This document shows positions 39,301-64,000 of a DNA stretch of 64,000 bases, piece after piece. The DNA lies in the NCBI RefSeq assembly GCF_947623445.1, contig NC_135248.1, positions 12,843,820 through 12,907,819 on the forward strand, given 5' to 3'. Positions within the stretch are counted from its first letter, which is position 1. The number at the start of each line of letters is the position of its first letter. The notes below the pieces were generated by a model, which worked only from the letters and a program-made list of their open reading frames with translations, was not told where the DNA came from and searched no databases. The stretch is from Clavelina lepadiformis. Its lineage: Eukaryota > Chordata > Ascidiacea > Aplousobranchia > Clavelinidae. The position numbers and the translations under genes were made by a program.

Positions 39301-40831
39301 TAGAAATGACGAATTATTCAAGCAGGTAGAAATCACACAGGTCGATGAGGCCTTTGAGCTCAATTACTTTCACAACAAGCACAAACTATTGAATTAAATG
39401 AATTCAAATTAAGCGAGTATACTGAATATCTGATCAAAAGCTACAGATTCGACAAAACGACAACAACTATAATTAATTTATCCATGTAGAAAAGGTATTA
39501 TGTACTGTGATGACACCATTTTACACACAATCACAAACTATCTATTAATATGCAGAATATAACACACAATTCCCATTTACCTACACTGTCATCAGGTTGC
39601 TGCACAATAAACTTGCGGAGACACTGCTTGATTTAACTTGCTATTCGGTCTTAATTTACCTGCCGAATTAATGATCTGACTCCGTGGTTGCGTGCGGTTA
39701 GAAATCTCTAACCTTAACGTGTTACTACTGTTATTAACCGAAAGCTATTACGATTAACAGATACAGTTTATTAGAAAACAATCCTTTATTGTAGGAGCTG
39801 TACAGGTTCCGATTATAATACGTTCACAACTTAACATTCATCATTTAAGACAAGTTTAGCAAATTACATTTTAACGCGACTGACGTAATACGTTCGTACG
39901 ATTCAATATCTCTGACTGAGCGTCTACACGCACAAAAGTTTAAGCTTATAACAGCGTGGAGCGCTGTGAACGGAAATATTCAACACAAAATACACGAACA
40001 TTTCAAAACGCGCGAACGATGAACACAAAGCGTTGGCAATGGGAATTACATTCAGTTAAAACTAGGATGTTATGAAATCGCCTGGTAACGTACTAAACGG
40101 CGTTTTCACATAAAGTTATTTAGAGCTCGTTTCCAAATGTTGCATAACGATTGCCGTTTTTAGCAAGTTGCAGCTGCAACCAGATTGCATCTGCAGCCAA
40201 ATTGCAGCTTGCAGAATTGCTGATTGCAGTTTTGTCAATGAACAATGTTTCAGTAACTAAATGGCGCATACGTTCTCACAATTGATATATCGGTCTTGGT
40301 TGTGGCTCCCAAGCCACTACAAACTCACGCACTTACACTTTGTTGTTGTATTCCTCGAAGATGCCAATGGTGAGTCGAAACTTGTCGCTATGTATGCTCG
40401 AGCTTGCGCCATGCACTTTTTATGACACGTTATATTTGTAGATTTCTTTCAGCTTTGCTATCGAGGATATTTCTTTAAGTCGGTGATGATCATACATCTC
40501 AAATGAAGTGTCAGATGTAATGAATGAGGTCAGATAGGTTGTAAATCTCGTGTAATTTACAAAAAAATTTAGAAACATTTCCTATACTGCAAAAAGAAAA
40601 CAAATTTATTAAGTGAGAAGAGTATTTATTAAGGTTGGATAGCTCTGGAGCCCAATTAATAACTTAATAAAGTTGGACATTAAACAAGATGCCACAATCG
40701 GATGCAGTCTAATACTGTAATAACACAACAATATGTTATGTAACAATCGCCAGACTCAAAAGCATGCCAGTATAGCTAAAGCCAGGGGGTGCAGTTCAGT
40801 TAAAATCCGGGTGCATTTTATCTTGTTGGCT
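36306..40831. other. Gene-poor region
   Basis: The longest open frame is 146 codons (37271-37711, -); it is hydrophobic and has no recognisable family. Frames at 37880-38135 (-) and 38659-38916 (+) are likewise unassigned. Near 40165-40235 there is a short cluster of TTGCAGCT-like units (imperfect repeats). No splice-framed exon could be supported. Confidence 0.5.
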
Positions 40832-41090
40832 AGGTAGCCGAGTGGTTGCAGTGCTGGCCTTGCAATATTTGAAGCTCGTGTTCCATGTTCAATACCAAGA
40901 GACGTTATACGGTTGCAATGAACTTGGGCGAGGCATTAACGACACCTACTGCTGTTCAGTTGACCTGATGTACAGCCGGACTGCAGAGTATGGCCATTTT
41001 CTGAAAAATCTTCGATGTGCCAAACAACGAAAAATGACAAATGCGGTGTGGAAAAATGCTCAGCTGCAATGGAACTGCAAAATTACACAT
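40832..41090 (+). repeat. tRNA-derived SINE, Leu/Ser-like head
   Basis: GGTAGCCGAGTGGTT (from 40842) is a canonical A box of class II tRNAs, and GTTCAATACC about 45 bases later is a B-box-like motif. The remainder is a body of unknown origin, giving a chance open frame over 40842-41093. Confidence 0.55.
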
Positions 41091-42291
41091 TAATGTACAC
41101 AGTTTCACTTGTTTAATCTTTAACTCAATTGAAAATTGAGTGCACAGAACTTCTGTCTAAGTTATTAAGGGCAATATAACGCACCTTAAGTGCGGCAGAG
41201 AGTCTCATTAAAACCAGTATTGAGTGCGCCTATGGATATGCCAAACTCTGCAGTGTGTAAATACCTCAAGAAAACCTAGATACACAAAAGCAGCAATTTC
41301 ATATTTGTTGTATTTTTAGTGATACAGAAGACTGTAAAATTTTATCATCGACAACATGTAACACTGAAAACTAAACTCGAACCCACACATCTCAGACACA
41401 TTGACTGTTTGCTTGCGCAATGGGGAAAATGCCAAACAGAAAAACGCTAATTACTACCAGGGAGGCGTGTACACGTTATTAGAAAACACAAGTGCCCGAG
41501 GGAGCAAACACATTACGGTTCTATAACACAAATCGTATCAATATCAATGGTTGCTTCACAACCAACAGTACGAGCCAGTTGACAAACGAGCATGAGCGAC
41601 TAAAATCACAACGACAGTAATGAAATGCGTCATAAATTACGCCAGCGAGTCAGGCAATACGGCTCCCCATAGGCTAGAAAGGATGTCTTATTGCTAGAAT
41701 TCTACACATCTCGTTTTAGTATGAAATATCGTATTGCACGAATTTAGAACTGTTCACCAGGTCCATTGAACATGAGCAAGCGTCCTTAATGACTTGGCCA
41801 AGGGTCTACTCGGTTACTGAGCCGAAATGATGGAAATAAGAAACGACTGATGAAATAACTGAAAACATCACAAAATCATAACGAAAAGTGACGTAAACAA
41901 TTAAGCTGGAATACCTACTGCAGTCTTTCATACCTTTGTCTTGTAACGCCGGCTTAAACAGAGAACTTTAGGCTTAAAACTTAAATTTTATATTTTTGTC
42001 TATCTTTTCGTTGGTAATTAAGCGATCAAGCGTAGATTTCCATTCAATGAGTACTAAATGTTTTTGCGGAAACATATTTAATTAGTTGTTATTGTAATAG
42101 TTCAAATTTTACCACCCTAAAATTTGGCGCCCAAAACAACTTCATAGTGTAATTGGTTTACAATCAATCAAGGTTTTATCAACAAGAGCGTTTTATCGGT
42201 TAAATATATTTGTTTGATCCACAAAATCTCTCAGGTCGCTAACCATCAAACCTTTGCAAATATCACCATATTGAGTGAGAGCAAAAAACTC
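41091..42291. other. Region downstream of the TRADD-N/LRR gene
   Basis: Expected to contain the 3' UTR of the minus-strand gene ending at 42292. No other feature seen. Confidence 0.5.
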
Positions 42292-45200
42292 TTAGTCTGG
42301 TTCATCTGTGGCTGTCTCTGCCCATTGACAATGATGCTCTCTGCGCATTCTCCAGCGAATATTCTCCGATTGTGAAAGCCGACTTGGACGACGACTCACA
42401 GAGCTTTCTCGACCGCTGATACTCAAGTCTGAGAGCACGAAAAATTCTTCTTGACTCATCATGAGGCCGCGTGTCTTTTTCGGCTGCACATTCGCAGACA
42501 TCAATCGGCCAACACGTGAGAGAATAGAATTGTATTCAGCTGGCAACGAAGTTAACAAATGAACGGCTGAATAAATTGGAACGGTGAACAGAATATAAAG
42601 CAAAGCAATCAACGTTAATTAACTTGGGAATGTAAACAAATTCGTTAAAACAAAGAAATCAAAGGAAATTATAACTAACATGACGTGGCGGTGACATGAC
42701 GCAAACAGCCACAGATCAAACTGGTCGCCAGTGATAGAATAGAACAACATTAATTATCAATAAAAACCAATGAACAAGTTTCTATGATAAGAAATATCGA
42801 AACTATCACAACAAAATAGCACAACCATATACGGTGTTTACAAAATCAATTAACTCGTATGTGACAAACAAATACAACTGTTACGTAACTATGCAAACTA
42901 ATACAGATATAAGTCACTTTTAAGCGACATTTCAACAGTTCTTCGCGTGGCGCATCAGGATATACGAGAACTGAATGTCTAAAAATCTCGAGTTCGATTC
43001 CCGACCAGGTCGCGATTGACAAAATATAATCGCGTTGGTCGCTCTTACTTTTGTGTAAAAGAATCGATTTTAAGAACGGTATTTACCGAAGTACAACCAA
43101 TTTCTTGCTTGAAGATGACTACGTCACACGGAGACGTCACTTTACTTTCGCGAGCGGAGTTCGACAAATTTACCATCGCGCCGACCAAGATCAAGACCAA
43201 CCCACACTTCCAACTATAAATTAAAAGTTTGAGATTAAATTCCTCTGCAATGTTCAACTTCACACAAACATAACAAGACATAAATAATACCGAGTCATCC
43301 AATTGGTCAAGGACTCGTTGAATTTCAGCAATTTCTGATTGGTTCGCAACGCGCTTCCCTTCTGTTGCGTCATCATCAGGGAAGCAATTGAACATAAGCA
43401 GCCTAACCTCGATTTTGTTGAAGAAGGATTTTGGAGGAATCTTCGGGATTATGTTGTCACCGATATAAAGCACTCTGATCTAGAGTTAAAATGTTTGTAA
43501 AATTAAACTACAACATGGTGTTATAACAAAGACTAATATCCTATTATTTAACTCATACAAGTTAACTGGTTAGTGTTAACTAATTAATAACTAACTAGCA
43601 TGATGGTAGCTTAGGCCTACAGTAGCCTACTGGACCAACACAAATTCTTCGATTTTGAGAAAAATAGAATGAATTTTAAGCGACCAACTTAAACCACGAT
43701 CGAGTATTCGTTGCAGAAATAAAACTTGATATTAAAGTCGCAAAAATATTTTTACTTTTGTAAAAATTTGAAATTTGCTTCTGGCCAAACCTTGGTCAGA
43801 TGCTGCTGATTTTAGCCTAAACTGAACCGATCAAATTTTGCCATTTTTCTCAATAAAACGAACGAATTTTAAGCGGCCAGGTTTACTGCGCATTCCAGAT
43901 CTATCAGCGATTTAAACAATAAAACTTGCGCGGGGAAATTACGCCCCGTTGAAACAAATTAAAACAAAATATTTCGACCAACAACAACGCACAGAATCTC
44001 AGCAAACCATGTTTGCTTAAAAGCGGGAAAAACTATTATGACGTCACAAGCAAAACACAGGCGCATTGTTACGACACATCGAGTTCGCAAACAAAGTTGA
44101 AGACGAACGAAAAAGTAGAAAGTAAAATAAATAAACAAACCTTTCCTGGCATTGCTTGAATTGCCTCAAATAATCGGCCGACATCTTCTGGTTTAGAAAA
44201 GCAACTGATCAGATCAAGCGACTTGATGCGTTTCTCAACTTTAGTGAGAATAAACAGGAACGAGTCAATTTGTGATTCTGTCAACTTGATATTGGATAAA
44301 TCCAGATTTTCTGGGAAGAGTTCCGCTGCATTCGTAGTGAGCTGCTCGTCAGTGCTGCATTCTTGGTGAGCTGCTAACCCTTCTGTGAGTTCCGCTACAT
44401 ACGTGGTGAGCTGTTCGTCATTGATTTGAAGAATTTGTTCATAAACACGCAGCAATTCCAGTACCTCATGTCCTAAACATATATAACTTTCGTTTTCACT
44501 TGTTTTACATTTAAATAACTGTAGGCCTATCTGTGACTTGAACCTGGTGTAGGCTAGGCTACAAGTTGGTTACAAGCGAATGTCAAAAACACATTTTATG
44601 ACTTACTGTGGCGCCCAACACACAAAGTTAACCGTAGATTTAAATTAGCGTCACAGGCATAGGCTATCTATTGTTGCAACTGAACACGATTACGATCGCA
44701 GCAACGCTATAGTTCTAATAGCACAGAGCCTAGGCCTAGGGCAAAAAATTAAGGATCTTGATAAAGTGCCCTGTTAACCATGGCTCGTAAAATCGTAAGA
44801 AAATCAAAATTTTTTACAGAAAAAATTAAAATGAGAGACCAAATTATGCGTGCTGTTGATTGGTTGAGGTAAACAGTTCGAAATTGGAGCAAGACCAACA
44901 AATATAAAACATGACTGTAACATGAAAATGGATAAAGACAAGCTCGGCAACCAGACCTCAAGCAGTGAAAAATCATGACCATGTTTAAATCAGTAAAAAA
45001 GATTTTTATACCATATAGCTATAGATTTAAGCTGTAAACTCATTACCAGCATATTTAAAATGACATAGTTCATTACATAACATAGAACTCAAACCAAGTA
45101 CTGAGTATAGTTTTATCAATTAGGTATAAGTCACACAACTAAATATGTGTGACATTTTTACACATTGGTTCATTCACACATAGAACAACAATTATCTCCA

Positions 45201-48200
45201 CTGTACAAAACACAATCCATCACTTGGCAAATGATATGTCAGTAATGGAACGATGTATTGCAAAAATAATATCGACACATTGAAATAAGCTACTCAGCCA
45301 AAAAATCAAATATATTTATACAAAACATGCTAAAAAACGTATTACCTCCATGATATCCGTACTGATACTTCTCCAATATGGGAATGATTTCTCTATGCTG
45401 GAAATCTTCTGAAAATCACAAAACAAACATATTTACACCAGAGCTATATGCACATACTAATTTTCGTCCTCAAGTACAAGTACTTAGTTTAAATACGTAT
45501 GAGTACAACTATCAGACCAAGTGGCATAGGCAACATAGCAACGTTGCATAGCAACTGAGTACTTTATTGTAATACAGTATAAAAATGATTTTTAAGGGTC
45601 TAATGACGGAGTTGAAGATTTTTACAAACAGAATGATTTTTAATTCCTACAGTCTTAAACACAGTAGGTGAATACAATGATCGAAAGGTAGCCACGAAAA
45701 ATAGTTGCATAGATGACCAGTCATAACGGACGGTAGCTTAAGCTTATAAATTCACAAATTTATTTAGGAAAAATGTATGCAATGTATGATAATATGCAAT
45801 AACACATCAAATATAAAGATTGACAAACGAGTATCATACCAGTTTAAGTATTTTAAAAACAATCAAGTACACCTGAGTACTGGAAAATTAGTACCCGGGC
45901 ACTTTCGAGTACCACACAAATGGTATTTGAGTCAACTTTACTCAAGTAAAAATGCTCTAGTTTATGTACTAACATATACCTCAAGTGTTGCATATATCAA
46001 AACAAATAATACTTTGAATTTCCTTAAAATTTAGGCTAGAAACTAATAACCAATAGATGCATACCAAAGGTTTAAAAAAGACGGAATGTCACTGATCTTG
46101 ATATATTTGCCATTTTGCCGTGACCTCACCATGAACCTACACACGGTTACTCTTTTCTGTTTCTTCCCCTTTCTGCTCTTGCACAATAGACATAAATTTG
46201 CCCAGAGCAGTGAGCTCTGTCATGTCCTAGGTTGATGTATAGAAGCATGATCAAAACTGATAAAAAAATAGAATTACAAGAAATATTGTTTTGTTTTAGA
46301 GCAGAAAGAAAAAAACCTGTATGACGAGGTCAGCGTTGCAATAGCAAGCTGAGATCAGTTTATGGTGAAACCTACCTTGAGAGGTTGCCTGTCCCCATGC
46401 AACATGGAGGATTTCGTGCATGTTTGCTGACACCACTTGGTGCTGTTTGTAACACACATGTCTAAAACATAGCTGCCACATAAGTAAAATAAAATATGCT
46501 GCTCATACCACCAATGTCCTACATCATGCATTCTGCTGTACAATATGCATATTCCATACCAATATGCATACATCTAAGTTTTTAAAAAGGACGAATTACC
46601 ATTGATCTTGTTATATATGCTATTTTGCCTCGCCTCGTCATGAATCTGCACATGATCACTCTTTTCTTTTTCTGCTCTCTTTCAATCTTTTTCTGAAACC
46701 AAAAATGAAAGTAGAAACCAAACTGGAAGGTACGCTTGTAAAAACGAACGATTGCATGGGGCCTAAATATGCCGACCTCACATGAGATACCCAGTGTCAG
46801 GTTTAGGGCCTAAAACTGAGCAACGTGGGCCTGAACCTACCACACAAAAATATTCATTCAAAGTAGCACATCTGCACAAATACATTATAAGCAAAGAAAA
46901 CTAACACTCTCGACCGCCTACTTTATTCCTTTTTCTGTGTTTGCTCAAATAACCAATTGCTACTAAACTTTCACTCATTCACTACGGTAGGCTTCTAGAT
47001 GGGTGTCATGTTTTAAGCTTACTAACTCTTGCATCTCAAGATATTACCTACTTATTTGTTCATAATCCGGTGTCTATGAAGCATTAATCATTCGTATTCC
47101 AGCTGTACACAACACAATGAAAAACCATTGGTGGACCCGGTGGCTGTTGCGCTGTACCCAGGTTCAAGAGCACTGGTATAGTCATATATCACGACATTAT
47201 TTCAAAACTTTGTATATCTATTTGAACATCCAGTCTGTATGCAGTCATCAACTGTGTTTAATATAAATAATCTCTTGACATGATGTAAGTATAATTCAAC
47301 TAAACTATAGCACCTGAACCAAATTGTTGGGGTGTTCGTGATAATTTTTGATACTTTTTTTGTTTAGATGAATCCATTTTTAAAATTGATGAAAATGGGA
47401 TGTCGACTTCTTTGGGGGGAGATAATTTCTGCAAAATATAATAATATCTAAAAGGAACCAGCAAAGTTCTAAGCAAAAATATAACATAAATATTAATCAT
47501 AACTTTTACCATCTCAGTATAAAATGCTACCTGGAATCTTCTACATATAATGGAGTATTAACTTAAAACTTTCAATCGTATGCTCAAAATTCCTCAGAGA
47601 AGTGTCAAACTAGTAAAACCGGCTCAAAATTCAATATTAATTCATTCAAAATTCGTTTAAATTTACTGGTCTAGTCAGCTTTAAAATAACAAGCTTTGAC
47701 TGCATTATTTATTATAATAACTAGGCTATCTTTTGCTGTTGATTTTGTTGTAAACTAAGAATAAAACTTTGTTGTAATTGTAGAAATAATTGCTGTTTAA
47801 ATGAAACCATTTTTGAAAGTGTGAATGGAATATTACTATACTTTTCAGAGTCTGAGGATTTCAGTACAAACAACTAAAAATCCCTTGGGTCAGCCAAATT
47901 AAATCATTGAACCTCTAAGTAAATATTGTTATCCGGAACCCTAACTCGAAATTTTTGGTTACTCAAAATAATTCGACTTGCCCCAGCAAATGGCAAAATA
48001 AGCTGAAAAGATTTAATTTTAACTTTAAGGTAACAAGCTTCTGCTGCATTCTTTGCTTAATTGGGTATGTTTATTACGTCCACATTTAACATTTCAAAAA
48101 ATTCTTACCACATGAAATTTACTTACCATTTCTTTGGTCTTTAACTCAGTGGTTTCTCGGCTACTTAACATAATCACAAACTTGCCATGTTCTAAAACAA

Positions 48201-51200
48201 ACAAACAGTTATGATTGCCTCATTTTTGAGCTGCAACATGATCTAAATTTCATAAACATAAACCTATTTAAGATCAAAGTAAAATCAGCAGTGTTCTTAA
48301 AATTTGTCTTATTTGTAAAATGAAACACAAAACCACCACAAACTTTTTCACCTTTTTCCACAACTAATTTCTTCGTTTCTGAAGCAGACAAATGAGTGAC
48401 AACTTTTGACTCATCTCTTAGGGTTGAAGATGAACTTAAGATGATCTACAGCAGGAAAACTTGTATTTATAAGAACAAAATGCTTTATTTTAAAAATTTC
48501 ATGATTGAAATGTCATTATGAAAATAAAAAATACTTGACATAAAAACAACTTGTTACTTAATGATAAACTTCTTAAAACAAACATTTCGTTCATGTGTTG
48601 CTTAGCAACAATTTCTGATACAAAATATTTTATAAATTTGCAACCAAAAGCATGCACAGTGCAAAAAAATCTAAAATGAAGTTAAACTTTAGAGTGCCAA
48701 CACATTTATCGTGTTTTATTTCATTATATACTGCTTCTAATTTAAAAAAAGAGCGTTGCTATCGAGATTGCTCTTAATAAAAGGAGCCCCCTTGTGTCCA
48801 ACTTTGGATGTAATACAGCACAAAAATATCATTTATAAAACAAAATAATATCAACGATCAACGTAGAATTAAGCTGAATGGTTAAAGCTTCTGCCGATAA
48901 AAATGCTACGCTTGAATGACTTTGCTTATTTATAATAAAATTGTTACTGGATAAACATGAATCAACTTGTCATACCTCAGTTTCATTTTGCTGAAAGTGA
49001 CGATCTTTCAGAGATTCAACTTCTTTTCTGATCTCATCAAATTCCTCTTCACTTGCACGGATAACTTTGTAGGAAGTCAGTTCAACTGTGAGATTATCTC
49101 CAGCCTTTTGCCAGTGATTGTCTATCAAATCTTGCTTAATCTTTCCAGACGAATATGCCTGCAGTAAGTTGGCTTCTGCTTCAGATCCTTTCGTTACTAC
49201 CTCTACCAAGAGACTGCCCTGGCCATATTTGGTCACAAAAATGCTGGCAGCAGCACCACCAGCAGCGCCGGCAGCAAATGGAACAAATGCACTGGCCAGC
49301 TTTTCACGAGCAACTGGATCACGCAAACTGGCCATCACTGCAATTGTAGCTCCACCGACTAAAGTAATGGCTGAAATGCCTTTGATAGTAAAACCAAAAG
49401 CTTTAATTTCAGTCTGTCTGATAGTTTCGTGCCAGCCACCAGTTTCCCGATCTTGGTGATGTCTTTGGCGGGGAGGCTCAGGTTGGGCTGCACCTTTGTA
49501 TATGTGCCGAGTATTAAAAATAAAACATAATATACGTGTTTATATAAATTTATGTAAAAAGAAACAAAGAAAGATGCATATAAAATTTGTTGCCATACTT
49601 TGCATTCTGTAGCTTAAACTGTTGAGCCACTATAACAAAAAGTTAAACAGTCTTTAGAGGAATGGTTCTACAACAGCAATTGTCAAACTTTTGGACCTCA
49701 CAAACTTGTCTAAAAAATGTCGTTGACCACCATCATTGACTATTTGAAAAAAACTTGTAAAATAATCATTTCAGTCTTTCATACATCATAATTAAATAGT
49801 TACTTTATTCAAGTATTAATTATGTTTGACTACCACACACACACACTTTGCACAGGAGCAATAATAGGACCTGGTTGTTCTGCGATAGTTTGAGGAGTTC
49901 CATGTATAGTTGGCTCTGAGAATGAATAGACAAACACAAATATTAGCATAAAAGCACAACATAATCACCACATATATACAACACTAAGGGGCAAATGTAG
50001 AGCTGGGCAAGAGCTGTTTTAAAAAGAGCGTCACTCATGCTGTGGTGAGCACTGATTCACCGTGTGTACCACGCAATCTTAATCTCATTTTACAAACACC
50101 AGGTGGTTAACTGTAATTTGCTGCTCATTATTGTTAGATTAAGATATGATTTAGATATTGCTAGATTAGATTTCCATGTGTTGTGCTGATTGCAAACGTG
50201 AATATTAGCCAACCATTAGCTTAGTTAAAGTCATGCAACTACCATGAAATATTCTAGAAACAATTCAGAGGAAAAGTCTAATGCAAATACGTAATAACTC
50301 CTCGAGAATAAATTGAAGTAAGTTTGGTGAGACCAGGGCTTTTTGATGCTTGCTTTATTCCTATTCTGACATGCTATTTAGTGTGTGCATAGAATCATGT
50401 ACTTATTTTAAATAACTGTGTTAAAGCAGTATTAAAGTTACTATAATTAAATAGTTACTTTATTCAAGTATTAATTATGTTTGACTACACACACACACAC
50501 ACACCTTGCACAGGAGCCTGACTAGGACCTGGTTGTTCTGCGATATTTTGTGGAGTTCTCTGTATTGTTGGTTCTGAAAATTAATAGACAAACACAGTTA
50601 TTAGCATAAAAGCATAACATAATCACCAGATATAGACAACACCTAAGGGCAAAGATTCAACTTGTGTACAATGGAATCTTAAATGCGCTTTGTCAACACC
50701 GTAACTGTGATTTGTTGTGCATTATTGCTCATTATTGCAGATTATAGTGCGATGTGCTGATAAATAATTATATATTAGACAATCATTAGCTTAGTTAAAG
50801 TCATGCTACTACCACGAAATATTCTAGAATCAATTCAAAAGAAAAGGCTAACGCAATTACGCAATAACTCCTCGAGAATAAATTATCAAGTTTAGTGATA
50901 CTCAATCTTTTTAATGCTTGCTTTATTCCTATTCTGACATGCTATTTAGCAGGGATGGGCCGATACGAACCCCAACCCGAAGAGATTCGCTGAATATCGC
51001 CTTTATGGAAGATTCGGGCGAACACGAATACCAACAATGGCAAACCCGAATACAATATTACTTTACTGACTTTCGTAAAAAATGATTATCTACTTTCCCG
51101 ACAATGCTAAACTAGAGTCAGCAGTACTTACAATGAAGGTCGTTTTCCTAACGATTTTGCTTTTTCGATCGTTTTTTAAACACTATTTTATGAAAGAAAA

Positions 51201-54200
51201 CAATTTGTTTATTGATGACGTCATTTTAGAAGCAAGACTTGACAACTTTTGGAGGAAATTTTATTGTTTGGTTCTAATACGAATAGATTCGGGATTTGTT
51301 CGTTTCGACCTTCATAATATTCGTGTTCGCAATAACCCGAATAATCTTCCTCGCGGCACATCCCTACTATTTAGTGAGTGTCATTCACTGAAGTTCGGTG
51401 ATGTCATGTGCCATTTACAAGGCATAACATGTTGCTGAATATAATATGTTACTCAAATACTATTGTTGTGATATGTTATTAGCTATTAATCATGAGGGCA
51501 ATACTAACATGCTGACATTAGTACCGTATTTTACGGACCATAAGGCGCACTGTAAATAAATTGCTTTGATTAGTTTTTTGTTCATACATAAGGCGCATCA
51601 TGCTATAAGGTGCACGATAAAAGTTTACTTGTTACGTAATAAATGTAAGCAAGTCACAATAGTACAATGAGCAAAAGAAAAAATGAGCCTAGTGAATATC
51701 ACAGTTGCTAGTTGCTTTTACCGTAGTTTATTGTGTAAGACGGTGGTTTATTTATATAATAATAGTATCGGTACTGGTTTTGAGTGTAGGCAATAAAGCA
51801 CTACAGTATTTGATCCATACATTAGGCGCACGATCAATTTATGAAGAAAAAAAAGGATTTAAATTGCGCCTTATGGTCCATAAAATACGGTATGATAATT
51901 AATTGATCATTCTTTAAATCTTATTTAAATATAAATAACAACCGTCTGAAAAGGTTTTACTAATGGTTAGTCAATATATCTACGTTGCTACAATGCTCTT
52001 GTTCGTCGATGTAAAGAAAAGCATTGCTTGTGGTTTTGCTCTTCTATAAGTGAATCAAATTATTACACATGGTTAACACTAGAAGGACGGGGCGCGTCAA
52101 TTGACGCATTTTCAACCTAAGTGAATCTATAACTTTTAAGTGGTGCATCGCACAACCGTGATATTTCCTGACTTTTCCTACATTAGTGTTAGGTAACTAA
52201 CCCATGAATATGAAGTTTTTATTTTACCGGTAGAGATAATTAACGTGGTCACTACCTAGAAGGACGGGGTGCGTCAATTGACGCATTGTTACTTCACACT
52301 ACAAAAACCAGTTCTCGCAATAGAGAGCATTGTTTTCTTTCTGCTAATAATTACAGGTTTATCGAATTAGGTCACAGCTGCCAGCACAGGGGTGTAACAA
52401 ACGTGTTGACAAACTATGCAAGTGGAATTTTCCGCAAAACAGAGTAGTTTCGTCACAAGCGCAGCCTAATATCGGAATTTTTGAAGTTTATCGAAGCGTA
52501 AGTGTAGTAAGAGTTTCTTAGTTGGATAAATTAGATGAATTAGATAAATTCGTCGGGTCGGTGGTTGCTCGTGGCGTGACAGGAGGGTGTAATTTCCCTG
52601 TGAAGAGTTTGTGGGGGAATTCGTGGGGATGTCCGATGTTTTCCCAAACCATGGCAAGAGACAGGTTTCTGGAGCTCATACGATTCCTTCGCTTCGATCT
52701 GAAGACGGAAAGGCGTAGGAATGTATTGCATGATAAATTTGCACTCGCTTCACAACTTTGGAACAGTTTTATATCAATCTGCCAAAAAGCACTCATTCCA
52801 CAGTGGAAGATAACTGTGGATGAGCAACTATTGCCGTGTAAGGCACGCTGCAAGTTCATCCAATATATGGCCAATAAACCAGACAAGTTTGGTCTAAAGT
52901 TCTGGCTGGCAGTTGACGTCGAAAACAAATATTTATTCAACGGTTTTCCTTACGTTGGAAAAGATGACGCAAGGAGCCCCCAAGGGAGTGTGCCCACCAA
53001 CGTTGTACTGAAACTCATGGCTCCGCTTTTTCAAGGAGGTTACAACGTCACTTGCGATAATTTTTTCACCTCAATTGACCTGGCGTTGCGACTTGCGGAA
53101 AAGAAGTGCAGCCTCGTAGGGACAATGCGCCAGAACAGGAGAGAAGTCCCGAAAGAGTGCAAGAAGAAAAAGGAGTTACGTGAAACAGAAGTGTTTAGGC
53201 ACGACGGCTTGTATTTTCAATGCGATTGCTTTTGTTAATTAAAATGGACATAGCGGAAATGCGATTTAAGTAGTTTTTTCGGAGCAACAGCACAGTTTTC
53301 TCAACAAAAAACGTTAGATTTGCGCCGTTTTGACCTTTTGCATCAATTGACGCACTCCGTCCTTCTAGGTATACGAAAATTGCCGTCCTTTTAGTGTTAA
53401 CAACTTGGTTCACCTGTGTGAGTCTCTCTGTCATCTTTAGCCTCAAAGTAGTCATTTTTATTTACTACATAGAATCATTTGTTAAAGGAGCATAAAAACT
53501 TAAATTTACTTTAATCCAACCATTTTTTGCATTCACAGCATTATTTGTACAGAAAAGAGCGACGAGCGGATAAATCTTTAAAAAGTGGGCCTGTGGTTTC
53601 GTTTCTAATTTGAAGAGTTTTGCTCTCAAGATTACTCCACAAAAAAGCTCTCTCAATTTTGAGCACTCTTGTGCCCAGCTCTGACTAATGGGTGTTACTT
53701 GCTATAGCAAATTTTCAGTGAAAGAATATGATATTAATTGGGATTGTGCACTTTCATAAAATTAATGGCTACATACATCAAGCCAAGTAAATGACTGACT
53801 TCTATAATTAATTTGTTACTCTTATAACCAACGATTTAGTAATGCCATTATAACTATGTTTGATTAAGTACTACTAAATAAAACACACACCTTGCTCAGC
53901 AGTATTGCTAGGATCTGGTTGTTCTGCGATATTTTGAGGAGTTCTTTGTATTGTTGGTTCTGGGAGTGAATAGAGAAAAACATATATTAGCATAACATAA
54001 CCATGTCAGCAGTCTCCACATAACCACCAAAAAGATATAACGCTAAAGAGAGTCAGTTGTTAATGAAAATAAACAATTAACAAAATAATAATTATGATAG
54101 TGAACAGCGTAATTTTGATCGCAAAAAAAACACTGAAATTTTGACCATAAAAAGTATTTTTGTTTCCATTCAACAACACAACTTGAAAATTAGGAGCTAA

Positions 54201-56412
54201 CCATCAGCAAGCAGCTAGTGACAACTACCTAAAGGCTAAACAAGTTCTGTAAAACTCCCAGCTATATATTATATTACTCTGAAATAATAAGCACCATCAC
54301 ATTGGCAAATATTTTTCTGGATTTTTCCAGCACCACCATTAACATTCCAGCAAAAATATTATTTTATTGCAACCAATCCCAGATTACTCTTAAATTACAT
54401 GTAGCTCACCTCCTGGTTGACCAACATTTCCATAGATTTCTCCACCAGGATTATGAACATCACCACCAACATTTTCAAAGTTCATGTTGCGCCTGTTGTC
54501 TTGATTCTGAGTGTGCTGTACGAATTGTGGTGCATAAGTTAGGTGGAAAGTTCCTGCAGCTACTGCAATGAATAAAGACAAATTTAGAACTTAAGATATA
54601 TACATGCAACAGAATGTCCGATAACATATATTTTCATGCTTAAGTGGTCTGGTAAAGTCTCTAGGTTCACACTTATGCAATACCCACGAGTGACTTGTCT
54701 TGTTATATTCCAGTGCCAACTGAAATTTCCATTTTTTGCTCTCAACATTTGTTATTTTTGCATTTTTATTGTGTGCGTAAGAATCAAAATACATCTATCG
54801 GTTTAATTGATGGAAAAGAACACCGTGACGTTACATCTTGACTCACCACCAGATGATGCAAGTTCTCTTACAATCTGAGCAACTTCTTCCCTAGCAAGAG
54901 CAAGTTGTTGACTTCCTTCATACTCAGTTATTGCCACAGGTTGACTTCCTTCATCTTGAAGATCCATCTCTTGCAATCTTCCTTCAACTTTATGTTTTTA
55001 AGAAAATTAATTTTGAAAGTTAGTTTTTTAATTAATTGATTAATTTTTTAAAAGAATTAATTGTTTAATCAGCTACTTTCTGTAACAGTGTTTGGAGGTG
55101 GTTGTTTATGTAATTGCCTGTTGTTGGCAACTTAGCGAGCTACCGTATATACTCAAGTATAGGTCGAGATTTTTGCAACTGATTTTCACCTCAAAAAGCA
55201 GGGGTTGACCTATGCAAGGAACAGGCCAAAGTAAAACCTCCAAGTCCAGCCGACAGCACGGTGACTGACGCATACATGAATTTGAACCGTGAACTTATTG
55301 CGCTTACTGGCCATTTCGTATAAATAACTTTACAACAACTCGCAAGCCTGCAGCTTGCACGAGATAAATATCACGTGACGCTTGCACGCATGAGACGAAT
55401 ATGGCTAGCGTCACACGAGTTCTTTGTAGGCTTGTCCTAAAGAAGGGCTGCTGAAGTTTACAATTATGCAGTCGCTGCACAATACTGGCAAGCTAGGCTG
55501 AAAAGTTCACTTAGTGGTGAACTCTCACCTATCCTTGAAATTTTCTTACAGTATGTCGATGCCAATACTTACATGAACCACCAAATCGACTTATACATGA
55601 GAGAATAAATAAAAAATCTCTGATTTTCAGTGAAAAAGTAGGCGTTGACCTCTACTCAAGTATATACGGTAAGCAGATTATTTCATGTGTGATATCAAAA
55701 TATAACATGCTATTACGTGCAATAACTCATATATCTTTGTATAATGAAAGAGAGGGAAGCTTGAATAAAAAGCTTGCCAAATATCAGCAGAATATGTACC
55801 TCCATTAAAAGTTGTTTTGACAAGTATTTTATGAGACAATCAAAAATAGGGAAAAAAATGAAGTCTTCGCACAAATTATATAAAAACCCACAAACACAGG
55901 TCAGCAGCGATTTAAAAGTTTTAAAACTTAAAAGCAACAAGGAAACAAACGTATCTGCAAATTAAAATTTTTCACTTTGTAATTTGATGTCATTGAGTAC
56001 AGAACATTTATACAATGCAAACAAACTTGCAACAATACAACACATTACCCAGTAGCTAATTACCATGGCGATGTTGTTCTTCTTGAGCTGCATCTATTGG
56101 TTGCGATTGGTCAACATTCTCATGAGAAGGATTACGGGTAAGTTGAAAATCTCCTTGTTCTTCTTCTTGGTCCATTCTCTCATATTCCAAGGATTTTCGT
56201 AAAATGAACTTCAACCAAGATACTACACATTTGGCAAATATCTTTACATCTGTAACATGTTGGTGGTTGATCAGTTTATCACGAACGTTAAAACTTATAT
56301 TATGCAGGGTGCACTCAAGATCTTGCCAAAAAAAGGCCAAAAAATGCAGTCTGGTTTGAAAATCTTCGGCGTAACTCAAGTCCATAATGGAAAATGTGAC
56401 AGCTGCACACAT
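42292..56412 (-). CDS. TRADD-N-like domain plus leucine-rich-repeat protein
   Basis: Gene model read by hand on the minus strand. Exons from 5': 56412-56064, 54987-54847, 54562-54410, 53959-53891, 50573-50505, 49915-49847, 49493-48976, 48445-48352, 48191-48127, 47428-47314, 45408-45346, 44472-44141 and 43479-43408, with a last exon 42566-42292. Phases are consistent through 43408; the link to the last exon is uncertain because the frame stays open past 43408. Product about 800 residues: a helical N-terminal segment; a Gly/Asn-rich segment (NVGGDVHNPGGEIYGNVG); three copies of a 23-residue unit (EPTIQRTPQNIAEQP); two hydrophobic segments; a TRADD-N-like domain (GSLLVEVV, LLQAYSSGKIKQDL, KAGDNLTVELT, EEEFDEIRKEVE); then LRR-like stretches (ENLDLSNIKL, IKSLDLISC, IRVLYIGDN). 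In animals and bacteria TRADD-N domains occur in death and immune signalling proteins, so a role in innate immunity or apoptosis is inferred. The first Met could be 56412 or the later MDLSYAED. Confidence 0.7.
42945..43018 (+). repeat. tRNA-like sequence inside the last intron of the TRADD-N gene
   Basis: GTGGCGCATCAGGATA followed about 40 bases later by GAGTTCGATTCCCGA, an excellent pol III B box, then GTCGCG that can pair with the 5' CGCG. Probably a SINE head or pseudo-tRNA; no confident anticodon assigned. Confidence 0.45.
43650..43935. repeat. Diverged tandem duplication of about 195 bp
   Basis: GAATTTTAAGCGACCA near 43670 and GAATTTTAAGCGGCCA near 43866 begin related stretches that each end in AATAAAACTTG. 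The copies lie in the intron between the two LRR exons of the minus-strand gene. Confidence 0.55.
45460..45965. mobile_element. Possible eroded hAT-like element
   Basis: Left side TCAAGTACAAGTACTTAG and right side (reverse complement) ACTTGAGTAAAGTTGACTCA share the CTTGAGTA/AGTACTT word structure typical of some hAT ends, with more AGTAC words inside both halves. Target duplication not identified, so boundaries are approximate. Confidence 0.35.
46066..46700. repeat. Pair of ~115 bp diverged direct repeats in an intron
   Basis: 46066-46185 and 46573-46692 are clearly related (for example GATCTTGATATATTTGCCATT versus GATCTTGTTATATATGCTATT, same order throughout). On the gene strand each has an AG acceptor-like start and one copy reads VCRFMVRSRQNGKYIKISDI. 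In the phase required by the flanking exons both hit stops early, so they are not part of the model; they may be abandoned exons. Confidence 0.6.
48976..49493 (-). other. Exon with two hydrophobic segments and TRADD-N-like domain
   Basis: The 172-codon exon begins with a charged stretch (RQRHHQDRETGGWHE), then FGFTIKGISAITLVGGATIA and LASAFVPFAAGAAGGAAASI, two segments long and hydrophobic enough to enter or hairpin into a membrane; the second is Gly/Ala-rich. Directly after comes a region with the pattern of TRADD-N-like domains: a first strand GSLLVEVV, an LLQAYSSGKI helix, a KAG turn, a second strand LTVELT, then E/D-rich EEEFDEIRKE. A two-TM region next to TRADD-N is known from cyanobacterial proteins. 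The assignment rests on remembered family patterns, not a profile search. Confidence 0.6.
49847..49915 (-). repeat. Tandemly duplicated 69-nt exon, copy C
   Basis: Symmetric phase 1-1 exon encoding EPTIHGTPQTIAEQPGPIIA plus PVQ. About 85% like copy B by eye. The flanking intron sequence is duplicated as well: the run before the donor contains (AC)n in both, and ATTAGCATAAAAGCA follows the acceptor side in both. Confidence 0.8.
50505..50573 (-). repeat. Tandemly duplicated 69-nt exon, copy B
   Basis: Phase 1-1 exon encoding EPTIQRTPQNIAEQPGPSQA plus PVQ. It lies one repeat period (about 657 bases) from copy C, within a tandem duplication covering exon and intron. Confidence 0.85.
50950..51366. 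mobile_element. Non-autonomous hAT-like element (MITE)
   Basis: 417 bp. Ends CAGGGATGGGCCGATACGAA and (reverse complement) TAGGGATGTGCCGCGAGGAA are hAT-type terminal inverted repeats. It is flanked by a perfect 8-bp duplication CTATTTAG at 50942-50949 and 51367-51374. It inserted into the second copy of the exon-bearing tandem repeat. No transposase motif inside. Confidence 0.9.
51524..51890. mobile_element. TA-flanked MITE with ATAAGGCGCA ends
   Basis: 367 bp. Left CCGTATTTTACGGACCATAA and right (reverse complement) CCGTATTTTATGGACCATAA are near-perfect inverted repeats continuing into GGCGCA, flanked by TA on both sides. GGCGCA words recur in the interior near both ends. TA duplication fits Tc1/mariner-type integration; the family name is not certain. 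Confidence 0.85.
52077..53396 (+). mobile_element. piggyBac element, defective
   Basis: 1320 bp flanked by TTAA at 52073-52076 and 53397-53400. Ends CACTAGAAGGACGGGGCGCG and (reverse complement) CACTAAAAGGACGGCAATTT agree in CACTA-AAGGACGG. Inner copies of CTAGAAGGACGG occur at 52257 (direct) and 53358-53370 (inverted), each with the palindrome CGTCAATTGACG or a close form. These look like terminal plus subterminal transposase sites. Confidence 0.92.
52522..53238 (+). CDS. piggyBac transposase, truncated (DDE_Tnp_1_7 type)
   Basis: Open frame of 238 codons inside the piggyBac element; TTG at 52522 is only the first possible initiator. Conserved core: ITVDEQLLPCKARCKFIQYM holds the first catalytic Asp (about residue 91), NKPDKFGLKFW follows, and VTCDNFFTSIDLAL holds the second (about residue 177). 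Then GTMRQNRREVPKE matches the family. The frame ends at DCFC without the third catalytic Asp (in KGGVDTLD of the type protein) or the Cys-rich C-terminal domain, and the N-terminal region is also missing. Active piggyBac transposases are near 590 residues, so this copy cannot be autonomous. Confidence 0.92.
   Translation: MDKLDELDKFVGSVVARGVTGGCNFPVKSLWGNSWGCPMFSQTMARDRFLELIRFLRFDLKTERRRNVLHDKFALASQLWNSFISICQKALIPQWKITVDEQLLPCKARCKFIQYMANKPDKFGLKFWLAVDVENKYLFNGFPYVGKDDARSPQGSVPTNVVLKLMAPLFQGGYNVTCDNFFTSIDLALRLAEKKCSLVGTMRQNRREVPKECKKKKELRETEVFRHDGLYFQCDCFC
53891..53959 (-). repeat. Tandemly duplicated 69-nt exon, copy A
   Basis: Phase 1-1 exon encoding EPTIQRTPQNIAEQPDPSNT plus AEQ. Its protein matches copy B almost exactly over the first 14 residues. 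It has been pushed 3.3 kb from copy B by transposon insertions between them. Confidence 0.85.
55143..55669. mobile_element. TA-flanked MITE with CCGTATATACTCAAGTATA ends
   Basis: 527 bp. Left CCGTATATACTCAAGTATAG and right (reverse complement) CCGTATATACTTGAGTAGAG, followed on both sides by GTCAACGCCTAC/GGTCGAGA-like words and a shared TGATTTTCA-x-AAAAAG-AGG-GTTGACCT block. TA duplicated at both borders. It sits in the first intron of the TRADD-N gene. Confidence 0.85.
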
Positions 56413-56803
56413 GAGGTTTATCAATGTGCACCACCAAATTTTTCTCTTCACGCCGATTTATAATGTGGTATAATGAAAAGATGGTTGTTTGAACGCTGAC
56501 ATATAATAGATAAACAAACAAAATTGAGGCTTCGATAAACGCCAAATTTTCGATTTTGCACACACGATTTCTCGATGAAAACTTTCATACTTTCCAGTCA
56601 AGATTCACGTAGAATGCAATGTGGTCTGTAGACGGCTGATTTGTAATGCTTGGATGATACTAAACGTTTTTTGCACATTTTATTTGTTTTAATCCCTGCT
56701 ACAATTATGTCTTTAAATTGTGTTTTGTGCAAAGTATGTTTGTCAAAAACTTGCCCATAGTTAGGTTGCAATCTTGCAAATCTTGCCCGAGGTTAGTCTA
56801 GGC

Positions 56804-57013
56804 CAGCAGTTCTTAATCTTTTTTCAACTGCTTTCCAATTTATGACAACTACTAAACCCAACTTCCCCCCCTTGGGGTGATTGGGCAGTGGCTACATTGC
56901 AAAATGGGTATCAAACAAGAAGTAACGTATAATCTGTGTTTATTCACACCAAAACCTTTTTTTGTGTAAAAAAGATAAAGTGTTAATTATTTCCTCCCGG
57001 TTAAGAACCGCTG
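56804..57013. mobile_element. hAT-like MITE 1
   Basis: 210 bp. CAGCAGTTCTTAATCTTTTT at the left and (reverse complement) CAGCGGTTCTTAACCGGGAG at the right match the Charlie-type hAT terminus CAGNGGTTCTNAAC. Flanking 8-mers GTCTAGGC and GCCTGGGC agree at six positions, fitting an old duplication. Confidence 0.8.
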
Positions 57014-57042
57014 GCCTGGGCCTATAATCTCTTTTAAATACG

Positions 57043-57331
57043 CATAGGCGGGCAGTACCGCGATAACATAATACCGAATTACTGTACCGCAGTACTTTTT
57101 CAAAAAAGTACCGAATCTATGTATCAAATGTGTTAATGTTAACATGTTAATTAATCCTTAACACCAATTGTAGAATCTGTTGATCGTTTTTAATCTTGAA
57201 ATATCAAGTAAAATTGCGAAAGAGTAACGTCTCATATGTTTTGACCTGGATTAAACGTTACCGCGGCAAATATTGCATTTGCTGCAGCATTTTTTTTTAC
57301 GAAAACTACCGGTACCGACTGCGCACCTCTG
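57043..57331. mobile_element. hAT-like MITE 2
   Basis: 289 bp, ends CATAGGCGGGCAGTACCGCG and (reverse complement) CAGAGGTGCGCAGTCGGTAC. Perfect 8-bp duplication TAAATACG at 57035-57042 and 57332-57339. It lies 29 bases from MITE 1. Confidence 0.85.
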
Positions 57332-57339
57332 TAAATACG

Positions 57340-60300
57340 TACATTTTTAAACTGTAACATCCACGATACCGTAATTAGCGCAAGGCCGCAAATCATATTT
57401 TAGAAATAAACGTTGTGACGATTACGTCACGACTCACGAGTTGTTTTGAGATGTTTGGAATTTAATCTGGGATCTTGTAATTCAGTGTTTACCAGACTTG
57501 AGTTTTCCTTAATGACGTCAGATAATTTCCTCGCTTGAACTGGTGTGTCACATATAAATACTGATGTAATGTTTTCAATCGTTCCTTTTCGTGTGATCGA
57601 TTTCACTGGTTACTACAGCGCTATGTAACATTCAGTAAGCTTTGCCCGAAGGTGAAAACCTTTGTGTTATAATAAATAAAATGGGAACTTTATAATTTAG
57701 TAATTTGTATAGACAGAATCAAGCAACTAACAGCATAGTCACGCAAATTTGAGAAATGAGAACTCATCCATCGAAGCAGAAGTAAAACAAGTTATCAACC
57801 AACTATCATCCTCGCTCATATTCTAACAACTACCGCCAGCATACGCGGTCTTTATGACAGATATGTTCCTTGTGTAATACTTCACACAAGTAGTGCACAA
57901 GCGAATTATTTCTTTGTCATAACGTTATTAAAGCTAAGTGAATCACTTTAAGCCAAGTCGTTTTAAGTTGAACAGTAAGAGCTCTTGTATCTTCAAAAGT
58001 TTAAAAGCGACCACAATTATTTTCGATTATTAGGATATGTGCATCAAAGAGTTTAAGCAGGAACAACAGAGCAATAATCCTCACAACTTCACACCTTCAG
58101 TAGGATACTGGATGAGATTGCTAGAAAACTGAGAAACCGCATGGGGGGTTTACCGAAATGTTTTTTCAATTCGTCAGATACATCGACATCAAGCTTACAA
58201 GAAACAAACTTTTTTATTGTAGTCTTAATCAACAGCTTATACGTTGTTTAACTTGTATCTTACATTTACCATTTTGGATCAAGTTTTACATAAAACAAAC
58301 CACAGTAGTGAATCATGTAAGTTTCTGGCTTACACATTTAGCAATGGCGATGGTTGCTTCCTGGTGTTGATGTGACAAAGGAGTTGTATCCAAGAAATGC
58401 AATTGACTTTATACAGGTGATTGGCCACAACGTTACCATTCCTGTGAGTTAAACCAAGATTTGCATTGTGATGTCACTATGGTAGCGTCTTTTATGGCAA
58501 ACATGTTCAAATTGCTGAACTAAAATTGTTATATCAAAATTAACACATGTCGTGAAGAAACAGGTCGCGCATAAAGGGGACAAATTAAAAGCTGAGGTCG
58601 CCAAAACGATTGGTAAGCCTCAAATATCTTGACTGCAGTTAAACAACCATTGCAGCATTACTGATAATGTTGCCGCTCTTTGACTACTTGTTTCGCATAC
58701 AACCAAGTTAAATTTCCCTGACGCCTAGAAATCGATAAATAGGCCTAGCGCAGGTAAAACAGACCCAGCGGCAAGGACAAAGTAGACTATATTGCAGGAA
58801 AAGCATTTTAAAGAAAAGTAAAATGTATGGCTAAGACAGAAACAAAAAATAACCAAATAAGGTTACCTGGCATAGTCAACTATATCACTCACGCAGAACA
58901 AAACCCAACCTTGTATATCATGCGGTTGCAATCTTTGCCATATTCCAAGTCCAATCTAACACTAACAAAAAAAGAATAAATATACTTGTATTACTGTGCA
59001 AGAGTAGTTCAAATGTTTGGAAATTGTTGGTTTGAATAAAATTACATCAAAATCACAAAATTTGCAGGGATTTGCATTCGTTTCCAAACAGGTGTCTGGC
59101 CAAATTTGTTCCCGCTACAAAATATAACTCAGGGTAAGTTTGTAGTGGACGTTAAAAAAATCCGTCTTCTCGTTAGTTGATAACATTATTATTATTGCTA
59201 TTATTATTATTAACATTGCATAACATTATTGCTGATATCCGCAGTAAAGTAACACATGAACTAAGCACCATAAAGTCACAACCAAAGTTATAATTTTCTA
59301 AATTAGAAATCTTCACCACATATTGATGTTTCCTTTGTAGTATTATTCTTACAAGACACAAAACTGATTGTTATACGCTCGCATAAAAACGCCTTGTTTG
59401 AAAAGATTAGCCTACATTACATCTTACATTTTTGCAACTGATTCATCTGCTTAATATTTTTCCTATAGAGCGACTTAAGTTCCTAGTGTCACACAGAAAT
59501 TTTCATTTGTTTATTTGATTTCTTATTTTGCTCGAATTCATGACCAAGCTTTGTTCGTACCTGGCTATAGAGTACTGTATTCCGACGGCAGCGACATTAG
59601 GAATTGAACCAGGAACAAACCAAACCTGGTTTTTCCAAACCAGGCGTTAGAAGGATATATACTTCATCTACTTTTATACAACACAAAGGTTAATGAGCTA
59701 AATGTAATTGCTAAATCGTCAAATTGATTTCTTTTTTAAATCAACAATCACTTAATTTTTTAATCTATGGTATCGAGAATAGTAGGCTATCGAGATAATT
59801 TCTTAAACGATTGCGCAGGAACACAATTTTGCAGAAACCCGACCCAGCAAACACATATCTGCACATATATCTGCTGCTAAATCACAGAAACTGTGCAAAA
59901 ATGCCAGCTGTTGTTAGTTTATGTTTCAGCCAATGCAAGGCTTAAATCGTTGAAGTCGTTGTTGTTGCTTTCACAACAAAGACTGTTGGAAGATAGACAA
60001 TAGTTTCAGTTTTCAAATCAAAACATACTTTGACAGGTAGTTTAATGAGAACATTCACACAAATCAGTTTAAAATGTCAAGGATAAGTTCTGGTTATTCT
60101 GGAATACCAATTTGGCAAGAGAGTACAAGTAGGTTATAACTTACGCATGTCTTACGTTAAAAAGTATTTGAGTACAGTTATAATTCAATCTTTAACTATG
60201 CAGTTGTACTACAACAAGTAACACTGTTACAATAAAAGATTGCAGAAAATGAGCATCAACATAAGCGCAACGTGTATTGGTGATTACGTAATCAATTACG

Positions 60301-60746: not shown

Positions 60747-60773
60747 GTTATTCAGTAAATAAGTTGACAGGAG

Positions 60774-61454
60774 ATGTCAAAGATAACTGTTGGTTATTGG
60801 AATATCAGGGCTCTTGCTGAACCCATTCGTTTGATGTTGGAGTATTGTGGAGCAGATTACGACAATAAAAGCTATGTAGTTCTAGGGGAACCACCTAACG
60901 TGGACAAAAGCCAATGGTTTGACGTCAAATTTGAGCTTGGATTAGAATTTCCAAATTTGCCATACCTCATTGACGGTGACGTCAAGATGACGAAATCGTG
61001 GGCGATTATGAACTACGTTGCTAGAAAGTTTGGAAAACTCGTTCCAAAGAGTGAAGAAGAAACACAGAGATGCGATATGGTAAAAGAGGCTTATATCGAT
61101 ATGTGGTTTGCCATCAAGCGCATGCTTTTCAGCTCTGATGGCAGAGAAGTAGCAATGACGAATCTTCTGGCAAACGATTTGCCCGTATATCTCTGCACGT
61201 TCGAAAACTTTCTCTCAGACAAAGATTGGATGGCCGGTGCCACTCTCACCTACGTTGATTTCGAGATCTGTGAACGCCTCGACGTGTTGACTGAGATGAA
61301 GTCAGATTGCCTGGATAAATATCCGAATGTGAAGAAATACAAGGAAAGGTTCTTTGCACTCGACAAGATAGCAGTATATCGTCGCTCTGAAAGGTTTAAG
61401 GAATATTCTATTTTTAACATATACACCAACTGGGGATACAAGAAGGAAAATTAA
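60774..61454 (+). CDS. Mu-class glutathione S-transferase, intact, intronless
   Basis: 226 residues in one exon. MSKITVGYWNIRALAEPIRL carries the catalytic Tyr; LEFPNLPYLIDGDVKMTKSW forms the glutathione site, and here the Ser of canonical TQSNAI is kept while Gln is Lys. The C-terminal domain contains DWMAGATLTYVDFEICERLD and ends NWGYKKEN. It is closest to the broken copy at 24.3 kb; the C-terminal part is nearly the same in DNA (about seven differences in some 175 bases by eye) while the middle is quite different (MWFAIKRMLFSSDGREVAM). It faces the copy at 63.3 kb convergently. Confidence 0.95.
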   Translation: MSKITVGYWNIRALAEPIRLMLEYCGADYDNKSYVVLGEPPNVDKSQWFDVKFELGLEFPNLPYLIDGDVKMTKSWAIMNYVARKFGKLVPKSEEETQRCDMVKEAYIDMWFAIKRMLFSSDGREVAMTNLLANDLPVYLCTFENFLSDKDWMAGATLTYVDFEICERLDVLTEMKSDCLDKYPNVKKYKERFFALDKIAVYRRSERFKEYSIFNIYTNWGYKKEN

Positions 61455-62662: not shown

Positions 62663-63319
62663 TTAGTCTTCGCATTTCCCTCCCCATTTCGCCTGTGGTG
62701 ACATAAAAGGCCATTTCTTGAATCGATCCGACTGTCTGTAAGCTGCAATCTTGTCCAGGGCGTAGAATCTCTCCACGTACTTCTTGATGCCTTGGTGCTT
62801 GTCCAAGCAATCTGACGTCATTAATTGGATGACGCCAAGCACTTCGCTAAAGTAGAAATCGACGTAGGTCATTTTATCTCCGATCATCCAATTAGAACTG
62901 CCAAGGAATTTTTCAAGCAAGTCCAGCAACTTTGGAAGAGTTTCGCCGAAGTATTTCTTCTTTGCCTCGTCAAAATCGTCGTGAGTGTAACAAAGCATGA
63001 AGAAGGGCATGGCAAGGTCACGTGCCACTTCTTCGTACACGTCACAACTTCGAATGTCCTCTTTAGTCTTCGGGTAAAGTGTTGCATGTTTCCGAGCAAG
63101 ATACTTCATAATCGCCCAGGTCTGCGTCATTCTGACGTCACCGTCGATGATGTAAGGTATGTTTGGAAAATCCAGATTCATGTTAAGTTTTACGTCAAAC
63201 CAAGAATTCTTTTCAACATATCTTTTATCTTCATATTCAATACCAAGGTACTCTAGCATGTAACGTATTGGTTGTGCCAGGCCTCTGATATCCCAGTAAC
63301 CAAGAATCAGTTTTGTCAT
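62663..63319 (-). CDS. Mu-class glutathione S-transferase with short mu-loop, intronless
   Basis: 218 residues in one exon. MTKLILGYWDIRGLAQPIRY has the catalytic Tyr; NIPYIIDGDVRMTQTWAIMK forms the glutathione site with Thr where the family has Ser. After YEDKRY the sequence goes straight to VEKNSWFDVK, so about eight residues (the GEPPNID segment present in the other copies) are missing, in the loop characteristic of mu-class enzymes. The C-terminal half (EAKKKYFGETLPKLLDLLEK to KWGGKCED) is nearly identical in DNA to the 27.6 kb gene. Frame intact, so probably functional. Confidence 0.95.
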   Translation of the reverse strand: MTKLILGYWDIRGLAQPIRYMLEYLGIEYEDKRYVEKNSWFDVKLNMNLDFPNIPYIIDGDVRMTQTWAIMKYLARKHATLYPKTKEDIRSCDVYEEVARDLAMPFFMLCYTHDDFDEAKKKYFGETLPKLLDLLEKFLGSSNWMIGDKMTYVDFYFSEVLGVIQLMTSDCLDKHQGIKKYVERFYALDKIAAYRQSDRFKKWPFMSPQAKWGGKCED

Positions 63320-64000
63320 GTTGTCAAAAACCTAAACCTTTATTCTGACAATATTTAAGCTTATATGACTTAATGAAAAGACGGGATTAGCAATGTACAA
63401 AATATGAACAAAAGCTGAGCTGCTATAAAATAAAATCTTAAAGTCAAATGTCAACGGTACTGAAATACCCTGCTAGTATTTTCTACGTCGTTTTATCCAA
63501 ACCTATAAAAAATAAACGAATTCGTTTATGATTAGAAATGGATGACTAACCAACTTTTACTCCCTATTCTGTAAATTCGTGAATCTTTTTGCTGTAATAC
63601 TCCACCTATAGTGAATACAATTCGCATTTGTTGTCAACCCCTTGTACAAAATTCTTATTCTTCGTTTTCGTTTCTACACTATTCTAAATTTATTCGTACA
63701 TTTGCTTGCTGCTGTTTGCTGGTATCTTACAAACAGGTAATTTTACAATATCCTCATTTTACAGGGTTTGGCCTACAATGGCTTTTCAAAGGAAAATTCA
63801 AATACACAACTTGCTAGCATAGCGTTATGCTGCGTGGTTGGCAACGGATTGATTTAGTTCGTTGTTGTGAAACGCAAAAAAACTTTTACTCGTCGCAAGG
63901 TAAATAAAAAAGCCATCACATTTGTTTTGTTGTCGTCAGCCGCTAAATTATGTCTTTTCCCAAGGCCTTCGTAGCTAACTGTTTATTCAAGACTATCAAG
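63320..64000. other. Upstream region of the last GST
   Basis: Contains the presumed promoter of the 63.3 kb minus-strand GST. The frame at 63611-63817 has no recognisable motif. Nothing else supported. Confidence 0.5.

Follow-up and report, generated by a model that had tools for sequence, protein, structure and literature searches.

The question raised by this locus is what kind of protein joins a TRADD-N-like domain to leucine-rich repeats (LRR) in the ascidian Clavelina lepadiformis, and whether it should be looked upon as a membrane-associated or a cytosolic sensor. The gene lies within positions 42292-56412 of a 64,000-nucleotide stretch (C9:12843820-12907819 of the 209 Mb genome that was searched), here called the window. 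Positions without a contig name refer to the window, and all exons and features of the gene are on its minus strand. We consider, with moderate confidence, that the product is an NLR-like sensor of the cytosol, without NACHT ATPase and with a TRADD-N-like domain in the place of it. The evidence comes from the predicted fold of exon 6, from the pattern of selection in the LRR part and from the distribution of LRR copies across the genome.

Twelve exons, when joined, were translated as a single open frame of 640 residues with fitting phases. Exon 5b, left out of this chain, comprises 69 nt, which by arithmetic preserves phase 1, and brings the model to 13 exons; one multi-exon minus-strand gene is confirmed. 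When the exons of the preliminary description were compared by tblastn with the window gene and eight paralogue stretches, the paralogues on the same chromosome showed the same exon order, with gaps in some. Most copies retained the splice dinucleotides; the acceptor of exon 3 was altered in P5. Unmatched were E13 in the sequence fetched for P7, exons 3, 7, 8 and 9 in P9, where exon 6 is truncated, and exons 8, 9, 10 and E13 in the distant P8. The earlier claim of at least 13 minus-strand exons in consistent phase holds for the corrected model and its recurring exon order, but some of the exons first listed had to be replaced or dropped. The coding start had been put at 56412. It was moved because the stretch upstream of 56175 is interrupted, by stops or by breaks of the frame, in every one of the six close paralogues other than a 99.98% identical copy, and exon 1 (coding part 56064-56175, ending in phase 1 and fitting the splice chain) probably starts at 56175 with MDQEEE. 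An exon near 46692 was removed from the gene, as its phase was wrong after the preceding exon and stops or frame breaks were seen in four of the six close paralogues having it. The exon at 45346-45408, exon 10 of the corrected model (label E11), turned out to be real, but in another frame than the one first read: as EDFQHREIIPILEKYQYGYHG it fits the phases and is open in all eight copies where it was found, nine copies being examined. At the 3' end, 42292-42560 was tried as coding and rejected on frameshifts in all three close paralogues aligned there; this stretch is probably untranslated or decayed. E13 may run on past 43291, because the frame is open as far as 43045 and the stretch beyond 43291 is similar to the corresponding part of a chromosome-4 LRR gene, L057.

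Exon 6 (48976-49493) comprises a Gln/Pro-rich linker, a hydrophobic insert and a TRADD-N-like domain, as judged from profiles and a structure model. The domain (49000-49404) is modelled as β1, insert, α1, β2, GS turn, β3, α2, β4 and α3, and the AYSSGK, KAG and EEEFDEI pattern pointed out in the preliminary description is present at about 49030-49158. The predicted fold is RRM/ferredoxin-like, β-α-β-β-α-β, as in the TRADD-N superfamily, and TRADD-N was the top PDB match of the exon 6 model. At the start of strand 3 the family alignment has Ser in nine of ten rows and Cys in the remaining one; a turn of a small residue and Ser, occasionally Cys, between strands 2 and 3 is given as a TRADD-N trait by Kaur et al. 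(2021; PMC8195603). Exon 6 scored 13.0 bits against PF09034 (cut-off 25) and 12.2 bits against PF20694 (cut-off 23.7), both too low for Pfam, whose cut-off is a curator's threshold and not a trait of the fold. Two results weigh against the assignment: no TRADD model was listed in the Pfam scan of the full-length protein, and exon 6 was not returned by genome searches with PF20694 and PF09034. The sole match of the PF09034 search was elsewhere (expectation value, E, 2.79). The PF20694 (TRADD-like_N) search had a single match over the cut-off, L001 at G000:C6:14004195-14004323 (E 1.3e-5), which looks like NCOA6. NCOA6 is placed in a separate TRADD-N branch (Kaur et al., 2021; PMC8195603). When the TRADD-N alignment was searched against PDB sequences, the best match was 2d1h (E 0.1), and TRADD was not listed. 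The best NCBIfam match of exon 6, PRK05248, was obtained in five of ten members with a best E of 0.0044, far under the cut-off, and was taken as chance. The TRADD-N-like core is under purifying selection, with a ratio of nonsynonymous to synonymous differences per site (pN/pS) of 0.39, which suggests that it has a role of its own. The structure model supports exon 6 as encoding a TRADD-N-like domain; of the original assignment the fold, the conserved Ser turn and the sub-threshold Pfam similarity speak for it, while the profile cut-offs were missed. Compared with TRADD itself, the predicted fold, the Ser turn before strand 3 and the top PDB match are the same, whereas the hydrophobic insert after strand 1, LRRs instead of a Death domain and a sequence match under the Pfam cut-off are different. 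No Death-family match was found in the scan of the full-length protein, and none of 17 matches in a Death-domain genome search was near the gene.

Two adjacent hydrophobic stretches, from which a two-transmembrane (two-TM) unit and a membrane-associated sensor had been proposed, are indeed present in exon 6. Segment 1 (ISAITLVGGATIAVMASL, 49324-49377) is inserted after strand 1 and before helix 1. In the model of the TRADD-N-like domain, segment 2 (AFVPFAAGAAGGAAASIFV, 49234-49290) covers the last part of helix 1 together with strand 2. Their 19-residue hydropathy means in the window protein (W) are 1.81 and 1.69, over the threshold of 1.6, as are both segments in P3 and P8. Such values would fit a membrane-anchored two-TM hairpin beside TRADD-N, perhaps a SLATT-like pore-forming effector fused to TRADD-N as a regulatory part and to LRRs as the sensor. 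So would some weak SLATT-type matches: exon 6 of the window gene matched SLATT_1 with E 2.6 and DUF4231 with E 0.55, and a single member out of ten matched SLATT_4 with E 0.0072. We regard such a protein as quite improbable. The SLATT scores are far under the cut-offs, and the model places segment 2 inside the TRADD-N-like fold. In addition, segment 2 is shorter by 7 and 9 residues in P6 and P7, unlike a fixed membrane helix, does not exceed 1.6 in these two, and is absent in the distant members L011, L013 and L014. Segment 1 exceeds this threshold in W, P3, P6, P7, P8 and L011, six of the nine members examined, but not in the distant L012, L013 and L014, which lack it. Segment 2 is therefore probably no separate TM helix, and a single hydrophobic insert is left of the proposed two-TM unit. 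The model has low confidence in segment 1, with a predicted local distance difference test (pLDDT) score below 50 at model residues 14-29; this insert could contact the membrane or drive self-association.

The C-terminal part is a short LRR of the ribonuclease-inhibitor/NLR type. It is encoded by E12 (44141-44472), with helices followed by two LRR units (LDLSNIKL... and LDLISCF...), and by E13 (43291-43479), with LRR-type strands three and four; paralogues support both exons, as do profile and model for E12 and the splice chain for E13. The LxLxx repeats noted earlier are backed by profile matches to ribonuclease inhibitor (E 2.5e-5) and NLRP1 (E 0.0023) and by a model of strand-helix repeats; no Pfam LRR model was over its cut-off. 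In the paralogues of the TRADD-N branch, changes in E12 and E13 are clustered at exposed LRR positions beside fixed leucines. A few other codons are strongly variable too, e.g., E12 column 3 and E13 column 39. Selection is diversifying on the exposed LRR face and purifying in exon 6. The hypervariability is shown for the TRADD-N branch, the sequence read from the other branches being one chromosome-4 copy (L057). The copies are young and partly broken (in P9 exon 6 is truncated; in P5 its end and the acceptor of exon 3 are altered), and the introns flanking E12 and E13 differ by 5-9% only, as from gene conversion. Relaxed constraint, gene conversion of the flanks or decay of duplicates, rather than selection for recognition, is nevertheless a very unlikely cause of the variable positions, given their clustering beside the fixed leucines. 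A mutational hot spot or plain decay is likewise disfavoured, because pS at the exposed variable sites is ordinary (0.10 versus 0.074). Twenty named surface positions offer a testable place to seek ligand specificity. The window E12 also carries a 23-codon insertion repeating a DEQLTT stretch, shared only with the 99.98% identical copy and absent from the six other close paralogues aligned.

How far is this LRR part shared? The cassette search, in which 150 of 257 candidates were scored and E12 and E13 were counted apart, gave 153 matches, not all of them among the matches listed. With a chromosome-4 E12 as query 103 matches were obtained; by hand count, 61 of these were on chromosome 4 at 0.29-3.5 Mb, with at least 73% identity. 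The NACHT search gave 97 matches, all over the cut-off, from 137 candidates. About 50 of them lay within the same chromosome-4 stretch as the LRR copies, and none of the 97 scored was on C9, the other 40 candidates being unscored. On chromosome 4, a NACHT match was situated 5' within 25 kb for 46 of 54 minus-strand LRR matches (median 8.7 kb), where we estimate roughly a third by chance from their density. The census of C9 comprised 36 E12-type matches, some of them fragments. A TRADD-N-type exon was found 5' within 9 kb in nine of these, a two-exon helical module within 15 kb in 16 (12 within 4.5 kb; 13 distinct modules), and neither front end in 11. Conversely, an LRR exon lay downstream of every TRADD-N-type exon on C9 (nine) and of every copy of the helical module in this census (13). 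For the four distant TRADD-N-type exons no cassette match was found nearby among the matches listed. The helical module was first seen in a 2.4 kb stretch (L058) and then genome-wide, with C9 copies at 13.8-14.4 Mb. Searches against Pfam and PDB gave it no identity; the matches were weak and to unrelated families, the best being Nbl1_Borealin_N (E 0.0011, under the cut-off). By eye it looks CARD-like, a resemblance that the database searches did not bear out.

The LRR cassette is common to the NACHT genes of chromosome 4 and to this third N-terminal module on chromosome 9. The LRRs of the TRADD-N branch and of chromosome 4 are homologous, with about 40% identity. Homology to the cassette of the NACHT genes, and nine TRADD-N-type copies on C9 versus 61 close LRR copies on chromosome 4, could also point to a NACHT-less regulator or decoy, which modulates the chromosome-4 NLRs rather than signalling itself. 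This we hold to be unlikely, considering the low identity between the two groups of LRRs and the purifying selection on the TRADD-N-like core. The results suggest that a small family joins a TRADD-type domain to an LRR sensor, and that the sensor stands beside at least two other front ends in a modular immune receptor set. More tentatively, and with some doubt, we propose a modular germline-diversified repertoire, in which a single hypervariable LRR cassette, with its roughly one hundred exon copies, is joined to at least three alternative N-termini (NACHT, TRADD-N and the helical module). If true, three outputs, one nucleotide-switched, one driven by TRADD-N and a third, would be open to the same kind of recognition surface. 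In tunicates, the sister group of vertebrates, a TRADD-N-like domain joined directly to a diversifying LRR, next to NACHT genes having LRRs of that kind, would show how chordate intracellular immunity swaps its recognition and signalling modules.

In the cytosolic NLR-like sensor that we favour, the gene would have lost NACHT, or never had one, and would signal via TRADD-N. The hypervariable LRR face may bind varied non-self or allotypic ligands, and binding could free the TRADD-N face to recruit a partner, as is known for MATH domains of the TRAF type. NF-kB/JNK-type or cell-death signalling might then start without a nucleotide switch, which would bear on whether an ATPase switch is needed at all. 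The repeated Pro/Gln exons would serve as a flexible linker, and the hydrophobic insert might tune membrane contact or self-association. The role in innate-immune sensing proposed earlier is consistent with the diversifying LRR face and the cassette shared with NACHT genes, from which we still infer it.

To the preliminary description, the domain order was not known from described receptors. However, Kaur et al. (2021; PMC8195603) describe proteins of the sponge Amphimedon with Death-like domains, TRADD-N and SH3, followed by LRRs. The metazoan TRADD-N expansions in that work resemble the present family in the central TRADD-N, in C-terminal LRRs of some sponge proteins and in lineage-specific expansion; they differ in that a Death-like domain was not found here, and in that the LRR cassette is NLR-type, hypervariable and common to NACHT genes. 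Its main text does not contain the words 'tunicate', 'urochordate' or 'Ciona'. With the NLRs the gene shares the ribonuclease-inhibitor/NLR-type LRR, and its LRR exon has a homologue in the chromosome-4 NACHT genes, but the gene model is without NACHT in the full-length scan and its LRR is very short. Ascidian NLRs that lack CARD, with NACHT-LRR or NACHT alone, are mentioned in PMC11508797. In bacterial conflict proteins, too, TRADD-N forms a bridge from an N-terminal part to C-terminal repeats (PMC8195603). The bacterial TRADD-N/SLATT-type 2TM effectors are different, since no effector enzyme was found here and the hydrophobic part is mostly within the TRADD-N-like fold. Among the papers listed by our literature search, none was found on the gene family in tunicates, the hypervariable cassette or the sharing between NACHT and TRADD-N genes.

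The remaining exons were placed by the splice chain and the paralogues unless stated otherwise. Exon 2 (54847-54987) encodes an acidic linker, probably helical, and had a tblastn match in all eight paralogue stretches. Exon 3 (54410-54562) encodes a Gly-rich segment, FENVGGDVHNPGGEIYGNVGQPG, without Pfam match; its pattern GGDVHNPGGEIYGNVGQPGG presumably recalls amyloid-type signalling motifs. Exons 4 (53891-53959, EPTIQRTPQNIAEQP...), 5a (50505-50573) and 5b (49847-49915; placed by paralogues) are three copies of a repeated 69-nt phase-1 exon. Exon 6 is followed by exon 7 (48352-48445, IILSSSSTLRDESKVVTHLSASETKKLVVEK), exon 8 (48127-48191) and exon 9 (47314-47428), the last with a phase-1 end at TTTGGTTCAG.

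Within 40001-58500, an 18 kb stretch holding the gene is 99.978% identical, with four mismatches, to part of G000:C9:12953500-12972900. This copy, 69.6 kb away from the window gene, is either a very recent duplication or a haplotype retained in the assembly. One family member, L010/L029 (G000:C9:13014785), has exon 6 broken after about 68 residues and several exons unmatched, and is probably a pseudogene. The intron that separates exon 4 from exon 5a holds, on the opposite strand, a fragment of a piggyBac-type transposase at 52522-53238 (+), which matched DDE_Tnp_1_7 with E 1.3e-45. Candidate glutathione S-transferase frames, recognized by eye, flank the gene at 24575-24994 (-), 27479-28288 (+), 60768-61454 (+) and 62663-63331 (-).
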